Assembly: GCA_028696805.1 (NCBI GenBank)
Contig: JAQVGI010000007.1
Span: 1-41,835, forward strand
Reading direction: 5' to 3'
From: Alphaproteobacteria bacterium
Lineage (GTDB): Bacteria > Pseudomonadota > Alphaproteobacteria > CAAHEQ01 > UBA3637
DNA length: 41,835 nucleotides
How positions within the stretch are numbered: the stretch's first letter is position 1; each line of letters starts with the position of its first letter. Under the pieces are notes generated by a model. That model worked only from the letters and a program-made list of their open reading frames with translations. It did not search any database and was not told the origin of the DNA. Shown here piece by piece: positions 5,759 through 41,398 of the stretch. The position numbers were made by a program, and so were the translations under genes.

Positions 5759-6158
5759 GCTATGCCGGAAGCGAGAAAAACCTCGTTTATGTCGGCACCA
5801 TGTCTTTTTTCTATGTAGTGAATATGTCTTTTTCATTTTCCCCATAATCGAGAAAAACACCATAAAAACTACAAAAAACGATAAGTGGCAGGTGCGTCAA
5901 TGCCTACCACAACAGCCCTTGTCGCCCCATAATGGCCTTTCTCGCCCCCAACCGACCAAATAATAAAAAATCCACCCTTCGCGGTGGATTTTTTGTTATT
6001 CCGTGCGACGGACGGGATGAGAACCCGTTCGGCGAGCGAGGGCGGAATTGTGCCCGAGCGAGCGACGCCGCGCCGAAGCACAGCAAGGCGGGCGGTCCCG
6101 CGGTCGGCAAGCCGACAAGGGATAAATCGTGAGCGCAGCATGCGCGCCGATTTACAAC
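5759..6158. other. Non-coding stretch at the right end of the island
   Basis: No convincing gene is seen. 5759-5958 is AT-rich and may carry integrase or excisionase binding sites (GTGAATATGT at 5818-5827 repeats 3893-3902). A first copy of a terminator hairpin follows at 5965-5996. 5997-6158 is GC-rich and shows no gene or known RNA; it may be left over from an older integration at the same tRNA. Confidence 0.5.
5965..5996 (+). terminator. Terminator hairpin, first copy
   Basis: AAAATCCACC, loop, GGTGGATTTTTT. Almost identical to the copy at 6180-6210. It is preceded by AATAATAAAAAAT (5959-5971), which also follows tRNA-Arg at 3804-3816. The right boundary of the newest insertion could therefore lie here rather than at 6178. 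Confidence 0.75.
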
Positions 6159-6178
6159 CCCGCCGGGCGCGCCAATAA
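6159..6178 (+). repeat. attR: right 20-bp direct repeat
   Basis: An exact repeat of 3789-3808 (CCCGCCGGGCGCGCCAATAA). Upstream bases no longer form a tRNA, so this is a displaced copy of the tRNA-Arg 3' end. Confidence 0.85.
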
Positions 6179-6179
6179 G

Positions 6180-6210
6180 AAAAAATCCACCCTCCGCGGT
6201 GGATTTTTTG
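6180..6210 (+). terminator. Terminator hairpin, second copy (probable native tRNA-Arg terminator)
   Basis: ATCCACC, loop CTCCGC, GGTGGAT with A-tract before and T-tract after, so it can work in both directions. It may also end the minus-strand flavoprotein gene at 6256. Confidence 0.75.
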
Positions 6211-6255
6211 TTATTTCCATAGATATAAAATCCCATTTTTTATTAATGATACGCC

Positions 6256-10955: not shown

Positions 10956-11192
10956 TTAGATTCCCCTAGTCATATTAGGCATGCACGAAGTGGCTCCGCA
11001 CGTGCAGGCGCCCCCCGACATCGCTCCGCAGGTGCCATTATGCAGAGTCCCTGTTCTGCCAGGATATGGTTTAGTCGTCGCCGCGTCGCAGGAGGGAGAT
11101 GGCGGCCGCCGGCCAACGGCATTTCCATCAACCGCGCCCCCTATCCAAATGCCCGCCATTAAAGCAATCGCATAATATAAATGATTTCTCAT
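10956..11192 (-). CDS. Small Cys-rich exported protein in the prepilin operon
   Basis: A 78-residue protein with a hydrophobic N-terminus (YYAIALMAGIWIGGAV) that looks like a signal peptide or anchor. The rest is Gly/Pro-rich with Cys at 35, 55, 63, 65 and 70, including GGACTCGATSC. It overlaps the stop of the prepilin-like gene by ATGA and is preceded by GGAGG, so it is translationally coupled. The GG-x-CTC motif is shared with the 50-residue protein at the other end of the operon. No family recognised. Confidence 0.6.
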   Translation of the reverse strand: MRNHLYYAIALMAGIWIGGAVDGNAVGRRPPSPSCDAATTKPYPGRTGTLHNGTCGAMSGGACTCGATSCMPNMTRGI

Positions 11193-11719
11193 TCATCCTC
11201 CTTTTCAAAATGACAAATTTTATCTATCGCCTCGTCCGTCGGAACAGACCATCCCAACCCATCCCGCTCTGCTTTCCAAAATGCCGTGCATGTCCGCTTA
11301 TCCGCAAAAACGGCTGTCAAAAAAAGACCTCCCTCCGAATCGACATGTGCATAAATCGCAGTCTCGGACGGCGTCAGAACCGCATGATAATTGTCCCCAA
11401 ACTTAACATCCAAAACCAAATCGCGCATATCTATATGCATCGGCTCGCAATCCGCGGTGCCGTCCGCATCTATCTGGCAATTATCCAAAAACAACGATAC
11501 ATATTTGTCAACCAAGGCGGGATTCTGCTTGGCGATTTCCAGATTCTGCTTGATCATATTGTAAATATACAGCGTTTCGTTGAACCTGTGTTTCCACACG
11601 GCGTATGTGTATCCCTGCATCGCCGTGATCGTCAAAACGGCGACAATGGCCAGGACGGCGAGTATCTCGATCATGGACCGGCCGCGTTCGGATATCGGAG
11701 CATTATTTTTGAAATTCAT
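11189..11719 (-). CDS. Type IV prepilin-like protein
   Basis: A 176-residue protein. The prepilin peptidase site is ERG-RSMIE: Gly13 at -1, Arg14 at +1 and Glu18 at +5. The hydrophobic helix that follows is MIEILAVLAIVAVLTITAMQ. The C-terminal globular part is acidic and contains three Cys (NCQIDADGTADCEP, RTCTAF). It belongs to the GRSMIE pseudopilin-like proteins; no pilus assembly genes are in the window. GGGGGGAAAG precedes the ATG. It is the middle gene of a three-gene operon. Confidence 0.82.
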   Translation of the reverse strand: MNFKNNAPISERGRSMIEILAVLAIVAVLTITAMQGYTYAVWKHRFNETLYIYNMIKQNLEIAKQNPALVDKYVSLFLDNCQIDADGTADCEPMHIDMRDLVLDVKFGDNYHAVLTPSETAIYAHVDSEGGLFLTAVFADKRTCTAFWKAERDGLGWSVPTDEAIDKICHFEKEDE

Positions 11720-11728
11720 CTTTCCCCC

Positions 11729-11881
11729 CTATGCGCAATAGCACGAATCGCACGAGCAGACACAAGTGCATCCGCCGCCCGAACTTGATGCCTGCGCCTC
11801 TTTCTTGGATATGATTCCCCAGAGCGTCGACAGACAGAAAAACACCGCAATGGTTATGATGTGGTTGACATATTTTGCCAT
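11729..11881 (-). CDS. 50-residue membrane-anchored Cys-rich peptide
   Basis: The frame reads MAKYVNHIITIAVFFCLSTL, then WGIISKKEAQASSSGGGCTC, then VCSCDSCYCA. One hydrophobic helix (about 6-24) is followed by a short polar linker and a tail with six Cys in the last 13 residues (38, 40, 42, 44, 47, 49). AGGAGG lies 5 bases before ATG 11881, and a promoter with operator-like repeats is upstream. It is the first gene of the operon, 9 bases before the prepilin-like gene. The tail suggests metal binding, disulfides or post-translational modification; nothing in the sequence decides which. Confidence 0.65.
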   Translation of the reverse strand: MAKYVNHIITIAVFFCLSTLWGIISKKEAQASSSGGGCTCVCSCDSCYCA

Positions 11882-11926
11882 GATTCCTCCTGGGTTTCGG
11901 GTCGGCGGCGCCCGTCCTGATTTACC

Positions 11927-11969
11927 TCTTTATCATGGATGTTGATTAAAGTCAACATATTTTGTTGAC
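11927..11969 (-). promoter_or_regulatory. Promoter and inverted-repeat operator between the XRE regulator and the Cys-rich operon
   Basis: Minus strand: TTGACT (11950-11955), 17 bases, TAAAGA (11927-11932), reading into the Cys-rich operon. Three half-sites overlap it: ATGTTGA/TCAACAT (11939-11958) form one palindrome, and GTCAAC/GTTGAC (11951-11969) a second sharing the middle half-site. This is a likely operator for the divergent XRE protein. For the regulator, TATATT (11977-11982) lies 6 bases before its ATG without a clear -35. Confidence 0.6.
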
Positions 11970-11988
11970 AATAGTTTATATTTTTATC

Positions 11989-12201
11989 ATGAGCCCATTT
12001 GAACTGATTGGAAAGAATATCCGCGCGGCGCGGCGGCAGGCCCATCTGGCGCAGATCGACCTGGCCGAGATGGTCGGCATCAACCGCGCTTACCTGTCCG
12101 AAATCGAAAACGGCCGGCGCAATATGACCATCGGCATCCTGATGGCTGTCGCCGATGCGCTCAAAATCCGGCTGTCCGACATTTTATCGGGGATAGAATA
12201 G
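11989..12201 (+). CDS. XRE-family transcriptional regulator
   Basis: A 70-residue Cro/C1-type helix-turn-helix protein: IGKNIRAARRQAHLAQIDLA then GINRAYLSEIENGRRNMTIG. It is a stand-alone DNA-binding domain, similar in size to small autoregulators. ATG 11989 has no Shine-Dalgarno sequence and lies just after a TATATT box, so the mRNA may be leaderless. It is divergent from the Cys-rich/prepilin operon with repeats in the shared gap, so it probably represses both. It converges on typA with 2 bases between the stop codons. Confidence 0.87.
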   Translation: MSPFELIGKNIRAARRQAHLAQIDLAEMVGINRAYLSEIENGRRNMTIGILMAVADALKIRLSDILSGIE

Positions 12202-39593: not shown

Positions 39594-39622
39594 AGTATAT
39601 CGGATTCTTCCCCGAAAGTCAA
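39594..39622 (-). promoter_or_regulatory. Promoter of rpsD
   Basis: Minus strand TTGACT (39617-39622), 17 bases, TATACT (39594-39599). Start near 39587, so the leader is about 97 bases and could host an S4 autoregulatory structure; none was worked out. Confidence 0.7.
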
Positions 39623-39668
39623 GGGAAATTTACGATCGCGGCATCGGCCGCACGGAACAGCGGCTTAT

Positions 39669-41045
39669 TTACGGCGGCGTGCAGCTTGATCCCGTCCAGG
39701 TGCCGCCGCAGGAGGCGCACTGACGCTGATACGCCAGGGCGGAGATGTCCAGCTCGTCGCAGGCGATGCAATGACCGTAGCCGCCGGCTGTAATTTGTTG
39801 TCCGCTGGGAAGCGTGATCGTCGTATTTGCAGTATACGTCCGGGTTTGCCCGTCGCGGAACCTCAATGAATTGTTTAGAACCCATCCGACCTCTCCGACC
39901 GGACAGCGCACACAATAACCGCCCGTTCCGCCCCTAAAATTGCATGCCACGCAGTGTGGATAAGTATATGTTTGTGTAATGCCGAGAGGCAAAATATTTG
40001 TCACTTGGGTCGGCGCATTATCGCACGTATAACACAATCCCCGCATGTACATCAGCGGCGTATCCGGATTGCAAACACACGTATCACCCACTAGGGTCTG
40101 GTGCGCCGGATCGGGGCATTCATTCAGAAAACAATCATGGCCGGCAAACACCCGGTTGGGGCAGTATCGGCATCTTGCCACTCCACCCGGCACAGTTATG
40201 GCAGAAGGCGTATTGCAGTCCAGACATTGGGTATTCGCGCTATTCGGCATTGTTTCCGCCGGACAGCACAAAAACGTGCTGTAACAGCATGTCGGGGCGC
40301 CAGATGCGTCGACGCCCACGGAAGCGCAGCATTTGCCGTCTACGATTTTATCGTTGTTGCAGCAGGAAAAAGTAAATGCATTAAAGTTCCGGGCACATGT
40401 CTGGCCGCCGATGCATGTCGTTTCGCAAATGCCGCCCAAACATGTTTCGCAAGGGCCGCAATCGGCGGCAACCGAACATGTTCTCTGGGAGCAATCGGCG
40501 CCGGCCCACCCGGCATCGCAATGGCAGATGCCGTCCGCGCAGGTCGCGTTGGCCGGGCATACGACGCCTTCGCACAGCAAATCCGCCGGAACATTTTCCG
40601 CGTCGATAGGCGTCAGGTCTTTGTTGAAAACAAACCGCAGCCTCGGCTGGCCGTCGATACAATCCGCTTCCGTTGCCAAATGCCCGTCCGAATTGTAGAC
40701 CAGCGCCAGATTACCCTTTCCGGCCTTCAACACCAACCGGCAAATCCCGGGCCGAATGCCGCCGTCCCTTTCCGCGGTCAAATCAAATTAGCGGTTGTTG
40801 ATCAGCTCGTTGGAAGTAATCACATATCCGCGCCAGTTCGGATCGAACTCGGACAACCCGCAGGGCTGGGCGGACGCCTGCAGTTCCGCGGAGCACAGAA
40901 CGGCGCGGTTGCGCACCTCGGCGAGCAGTTCGTTGGCCTCGATCCTGTCCACCGCGTGGCGGTATCCAGCGATGCCGCCGATCGTCAGAACCCCGACAAC
41001 CGCCAGAACCCCCAGCATCTCCACAAATGTCCGACCCGTTTCCAT
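39669..41045 (-). pseudogene. Prepilin/EGF-like Cys-rich surface protein interrupted by an in-frame TAA
   Basis: An 85-codon piece ([20 protein letters not shown], prepilin site G4-RTFVE with Glu9 at +5) ends at TAA 40788-40790. The same frame then continues FDLTAERDGGIRPGICRLV to 39669. Together 459 codons: prepilin helix, pilin-like head (SEFDPNWRGYVITSNELINN before the stop), an EGF-like module (CPANATCADGICHCDAGWAG), then many Cys pairs such as CPVGEVGW, CIACDEL and CASCGGTW. Downstream of the stop, only a TTG is near. The join reads naturally, so this is probably one gene with a nonsense codon. The start overlaps merR by TGATG. Confidence 0.75.
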
Positions 41046-41398
41046 CAGCCGTCCACATACGGCGCCAGCAGATCGCGCACCTCGGACATTTCCTGAACGA
41101 ACGCATCCTGCGCGTGCAAAACCTCTTCCGTTTTTTCCGGCAGCGGCGCGACACCGGCCTCCGTTTCCGTTTTCAGGCGCTTTTGGACGCCCTTGATCGT
41201 GTAGCCTTCCTTATACAGGTAATCGCGGATGCGCGCCAGCAGCACGACATCCTCGGCGCGGTAATACCGGCGGCCCATCCGCTTGACCGGCTTGATCTGA
41301 TGGAACTGCGTCTCCCAAAAACGCAACACGGACGCCTGGATTTGAAGCAGGTCTGCCACTTCCGAAATCGTCCGGTATGCGTGTTCGGCTTTCATCAT
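41045..41398 (-). CDS. MerR-family regulator (ihfA-linked)
   Basis: A 117-residue protein: [20 protein letters not shown] then [20 protein letters not shown] and [20 protein letters not shown], a MerR winged-helix DNA-binding domain. A short acidic C-terminus lacks ligand Cys. A MerR protein directly after ihfA is common in alphaproteobacteria, function not established. ATG 41398 or the next ATG (41395) follows the ihfA stop without a gap. Its stop overlaps the prepilin-like start. Confidence 0.87.

Follow-up and report, generated by a model that had tools for sequence, protein, structure and literature searches.

A putative pilin and accessory-protein cassette with two small Cys-rich proteins and a divergent XRE regulator in an alphaproteobacterial genome

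Organisation and control of the locus

The window, i.e., the whole stretch of 41,835 nucleotides that was analysed, is contig C16 of a source genome of 0.96 Mb (98% complete), the single genome of its genus in the set searched, which itself consists of draft assemblies with one genome per species. From the list of open reading frames (ORFs) and a reading of the sequence, three frames on the (-) strand and a divergent XRE gene on the (+) strand were found where the original prediction had placed them, with overlapping palindromes in between, namely:

10956..11192, (-) strand: pep78, a 78-aa Cys protein predicted to be exported, with the SD AAGGAGG and an ATGA overlap
11189..11719, (-) strand: a short type IV prepilin-like protein of 176 aa, with the processing motif GRSMIEI and without a long Cys-rich extension
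11729..11881, (-) strand: pep50, a 50-aa ORF with the SD AGGAGG
11927..11955, (-) strand: a putative operon promoter, TTGACT-17-TAAAGA, with a weak -10, read from the sequence
11940..11969, no strand: a putative operator in the sequence, formed by two overlapping palindromes
11977..11982, (+) strand: TATATT, a possible -10 of the XRE gene as read from the sequence
11989..12201, (+) strand: an XRE/Cro-type regulator of 70 aa with one HTH domain, matched in Pfam, PADLOC and the PDB

The tight operon originally predicted is borne out by a 9-base gap between the stop of pep50 and the prepilin gene, by the ATGA in which the start of pep78 overlaps the prepilin stop, and by an SD-like purine run 5' of the ATG in all three genes, i.e., AGGAGG for pep50, GGGGGGAAAG for the prepilin and AAGGAGG for pep78. 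The descriptions of the small proteins stood as well, with six Cys within the last 13 residues of the 50-residue peptide, five Cys and the motif GGACTC in the 78-residue protein (10956-11192, (-) strand), for which export is predicted, and GG-x-CTC common to both. The GC3 of the three operon genes is 0.54-0.63 vs 0.84-0.89 in five long neighbouring genes, and their codon scores are all negative, the codon usage being atypical; two other short pilins of the same genome (GC3 of 0.51-0.55) are similar to the operon genes in this respect. The ten neighbouring genes checked include those for a VTT-domain-like protein and TypA/BipA. Elsewhere in the window, at 5958-6216, a 42-nt self-complementary repeat (AAAAAATCCACC...GGTGGATTTTTT) is present in two near-identical copies, 215 bases apart.

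The XRE protein is matched by Pfam HTH_3 (7.2e-14), by a PADLOC control-protein model (3.7e-12) and, in the PDB, by C.BclI (9.5e-7). Its gene most probably starts at the ATG at 11989, which gives a protein of 70 aa and is not preceded by an SD; since, in addition, TATATT sits 6 nt before this ATG, the XRE mRNA is likely leaderless. Between the divergent genes, half-sites alternate in sense, i.e., TGTTGA (11940-11945), TCAACA (11952-11957) and TGTTGA (11963-11968), and compose a first palindrome, TGTTGA-n6-TCAACA (11940-11957), overlapped by a second, GTCAACA-n5-TGTTGAC (11951-11969), the latter also listed by a scan of the sequence. The middle half-site overlaps TTGACT, the -35-like hexamer of the operon, of which the -10, TAAAGA, is weak; a consensus promoter scan reported none at TTGACT-17-TAAAGA. 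In the 0.96-Mb genome, the exact 18-bp palindrome (11940-11957) occurs once, and two weaker matches with 2-3 mismatches are both inside ORFs of other genes. The divergent XRE gene and the overlapping inverted repeats over the -35, from which dedicated control had been proposed, are thus present, and a dedicated-looking putative operator holds up.

C-protein genes possess palindromic operators and leaderless mRNAs (PMC4824078). Like C.BclI and C.Csp231I (PMC4824078), the protein of the window is a single-HTH XRE protein, here of 70 aa, with inverted repeats in its own promoter region and a probable leaderless start. Unlike the C proteins of R-M systems, however, it has no restriction or modification gene among the ten genes neighbouring its locus, and three overlapping half-sites are present instead of two separate operators. 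As for a constant association of XRE gene and prepilin, which had been suggested as a check, it was not encountered, with none of the XRE relatives read lying beside a prepilin; the closest relative (G040, 52% identity) was set aside, being without an adjoining pilin.

The prepilin and its family

At the processing site ERG^RSMIEILAVLAIVAVLTI, the prepilin has the G(-1) and E(+5) expected of a class III signal peptide, together with the hydrophobic N-helix. Matches to its N-terminus occur in 40/40 family genomes, with 4 to at least 87 per genome, and the 12 other matches in its own genome are likewise all to the N-terminus. A family HMM, built from 37 N-terminal regions fetched from pilin-like sequences, gives 77.9 bits over residues 5-63, the C-terminal half showing only a loose, non-significant alignment. 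The prepilin-like nature of the protein is therefore supported by the GRSMIE motif, the family-wide N-terminal matches and the family HMM, and on these sequence grounds it is assigned to a family of pilin-like proteins that has expanded strongly within this bacterial family. A single-sequence AlphaFold model, weakly informative (mean pLDDT 52, pTM 0.32) and of insufficient quality for a fold search, displays an N-terminal helix starting at residue 11, with strands further along the chain. The own genome further encodes a prepilin peptidase (one PF01478 match, E 4.2e-17) and T2SSE-type ATPases (PF00437, best E 2.3e-68). While the G(-1)/E(+5) motif, the hydrophobic N-helix, the prepilin peptidase and the ATPases are shared with the type IV filament superfamily, the GRSMxE protein differs from it in remaining under the N-methyl cut-offs of Pfam (13.0 of 21.2 bits) and NCBIfam (15.5 of 16.3 bits) and in having many paralogues with Cys-rich domains. 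A GRSMxE family of this kind presumably occurs in uncultured gut Alphaproteobacteria (GTDB RF32).

Of the longer pilin-like paralogues in the same genome, six, with lengths of 390-794 aa, have 26-80 Cys past residue 180. Five Cys are present in a 641-aa match whose leader differs (GSILIE), and a 1102-aa paralogue appears Cys-rich too in the portion read. In most paralogues of at least 390 aa, the same chain thus continues into a Cys-rich C-terminal domain. As read from its gene, the prepilin of the window is without such a domain, its Cys-rich neighbours being encoded separately instead.

Several observations concern other members of the family. A second pilin-like gene of the window (39600-41050, (-) strand), has the leader GRTFVEML and continues, still in frame, as a Cys-rich sequence, but a single in-frame stop breaks it after about 85 residues, which may reflect a pseudogene, an assembly error or read-through; an in-frame stop at a similar place is found in a pilin of G015, a genome of another genus (L209). 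Two nearly identical short pilin genes (G000:C18, L057 3326-4588) are divergent, and their 5' ends agree even upstream of the likely start, which points to an inverted duplication. Many of the pilin N-terminus matches in the family genomes are no more than about 300 bases from the end of their contig, which looks as though the assemblies had broken at repeated pilin 5' ends. No relatives of the prepilin were found in genome_contigs, viral_contigs or phages, the one exception being MT839721.1 (L113), a record labelled Bacteriophage sp. whose pilin has a similar N-terminus; its GRSMVE pilin adjoins an ORF reading like a PilT/PilB-type ATPase, and the record looks like a bacterial contig.

Small Cys-tailed proteins and their recurrence

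pep50 comprises a hydrophobic stretch at about residues 8-24, then SKKEAQA and then the Cys tail CTCVCSCDSCYCA, which is built of CxC and CxxC motifs (CTCVCSCDSCYC). Among the window ORFs of 40 aa or longer (317), no other packs five or more Cys into a stretch of 13 residues. Originally described as membrane-anchored, it does possess the hydrophobic segment, but the anchoring itself is uncertain, AQA-S after this segment being a possible signal peptidase site. The search of related genomes that had been proposed for this peptide yielded no credible relative in the family genomes searched (40-43), and none was found in genome_contigs, viral_contigs or plasmids; a match in G012 (E 8.5e-4) has five stops inside and was taken as chance. 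Likewise, pep78 has no homologue outside its own genome at E<0.05 in the family genomes searched. The cassette is absent from the DNA downstream of yqaA in all of 29 relatives, and both tiny proteins together with the layout were not found in any other genome searched.

A comparable pairing was nonetheless met upon scanning the DNA beside the fetched pilins, where, in G015, two short pilins each precede an 85-aa protein that reads MAR[RK]IKRFLVFMFFSLFF...SKK... and has a Cys-rich tail. A profile built from this pair of proteins, which has no match in the own genome of the window, retrieved five more loci in G015, i.e., seven in all, including two similar pairs of short pilin and small protein. 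The seven small proteins have in common a basic-hydrophobic N-terminus ([MT]AR[RKE]IKRF..F.FFS.FF), and all seven genes are directly downstream of a pilin-like gene, with gaps of 14-69 nt in six cases and overlapping frames in one. Among the six proteins readable to their end, five have 3-5 tail Cys and one a single Cys, the pilin preceding the latter having an in-frame stop; the seventh runs off the end of its contig. As in the pilins, a conserved N-terminus is here combined with a variable tail.

A filter for small hydrophobic ORFs with an SD and two or more Cys was applied downstream of 70 pilins, each followed by 150 nt or more of sequence, and retained four candidates in G015 and, in the window, pep78, besides two ORFs that are second pilins and a TTG ORF. 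Small SD-preceded Cys proteins with predicted export are thereby confined, among the 70 pilins scanned in this downstream direction, to G015 and the window, and an upstream partner such as pep50 would escape such a filter; no sampled genome besides G015 shows the pairing. pep50 and the G015 proteins share MA[KR] and a hydrophobic stretch, with SKK common to pep50 and two of them, but, against a profile of six G015 proteins, pep50 ranks only 5/501 relative to its own block-preserving shuffles. The small gene is downstream of the pilin in G015, whereas pep50 is upstream of its pilin in the window. By sequence, the architecture is similar and homology is possible, though unproven. As the pairing of pilins with Cys-tailed proteins recurs in G015, a functional link between pilin and small proteins is more likely than coincidence. 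The original prediction had tied its own fate to conservation of the small frames, and the outcome is divided, i.e., the frames themselves have no credible relatives in the genomes searched, but pilin-linked small Cys-tailed proteins recur in G015.

A candidate pilin and accessory-protein cassette

In Pseudomonas, accessory genes are located downstream of the pilin gene (PMC11841053). Together with tfpX/tfpY/tfpZ, the pilA gene of P. aeruginosa forms a small cassette, the accessory gene adjoining the pilin gene and varying from one pilin group to another (PMC11841053), and in the window as in G015 a putative accessory gene belongs to the same cassette as the pilin gene. Compared by layout, the partners found here are, unlike those of pilA, tiny and Cys-tailed and flank the pilin gene on its upstream and downstream sides, next to an XRE gene in divergent orientation. 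A literature search with limited term combinations found no paper with this layout, for which no described system had originally been named either; its likeness to published pilin-accessory cassettes (PMC11841053) nonetheless means that it is not without parallel. An arrangement of a known kind in a new form, with tiny Cys-tailed proteins, is the best-supported description.

The best reading of the locus, to which we give about an even chance on the sequence data, is a lineage-specific, fast-evolving cassette of a pilin and accessory proteins. Counting against it are the lack of homologues of pep50 and pep78, the rank of pep50 in the G015 comparison and the failure of the two-sequence profile to match the own genome, the differing position of the small gene in G015, the restriction of the pairing to G015 and the window among the genomes sampled, the poor alignment of the C-terminal half of the pilin, and the single-Cys, truncated and stop-interrupted cases among the seven G015 loci. 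The prepilin would be exported by the type IV filament machinery of the genome, the use of which is surmised from its genes, and processed by its prepilin peptidase, and pep50 and pep78 would either leave the cytoplasm alongside it or remain attached to the inner membrane. Their Cys-rich tails would associate with the pilin as stabilisers or assembly partners, probably by disulfides, which are preferred in view of the many Cys of the partners and of the longer paralogues alike and of their predicted extracytoplasmic location; as such, the small proteins may replace the Cys-rich domain that the longer paralogues carry on the same chain. The XRE protein probably attaches to the three half-sites that separate the divergent genes and controls both of these, which would yield switch-like expression. 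In its boldest form the proposal is doubtful; there, a class of tiny Cys-tailed proteins that evolve rapidly and are encoded with pilins would be exported and joined to the filament by covalent disulfides, as a split-off version of the Cys-rich domain of the longer paralogues and, in the window, under a dedicated switch.

The small frames could instead be orphan young genes, recently arisen or horizontally acquired beside the pilin and without a shared role, an explanation in keeping with their lack of homologues, their low GC3 and the one genome available for the genus in the set. It is rather unlikely, as it fits poorly with the SDs, the 9-bp gap, the ATGA overlap and the common GGxCTC, and with the recurrence of pilin-linked Cys-tailed small proteins in G015. 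Extracytoplasmic metallothionein-like peptides, chelating metal through CxC/CxxC under a stress-responsive XRE gene, are suggested by the CxC and CxxC motifs that make up the pep50 tail; repeated CxC is however absent from pep78 and from the G015 tails, neither small protein has a metallothionein family match in Pfam or NCBIfam, and no metal transporter or regulator is among the ten neighbouring genes checked, which leaves this role improbable. Finally, pep50 could be a secreted Cys peptide of the bacteriocin or RiPP type, switched by the XRE gene and with the pilin incidental, for which its leader-like N-terminus and Cys core and its sub-threshold match to lactococcin_972 (E 0.072) might speak. 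This is very improbable, the match being far under the cut-off of the model and no maturation enzyme, peptidase-transporter or immunity gene being among the ten neighbours checked.

For the reading as a pilin and accessory-protein cassette, the broader setting is a bacterial family which spends many genes on pilin-like proteins, often with Cys-rich exteriors, and on which a limited full-text literature search found no paper dealing with its many Cys-rich pilin-like proteins. Small Cys-tailed proteins beside pilins in two genera would offer an entry point to the way such fibres are constructed, possibly including disulfide linkage.
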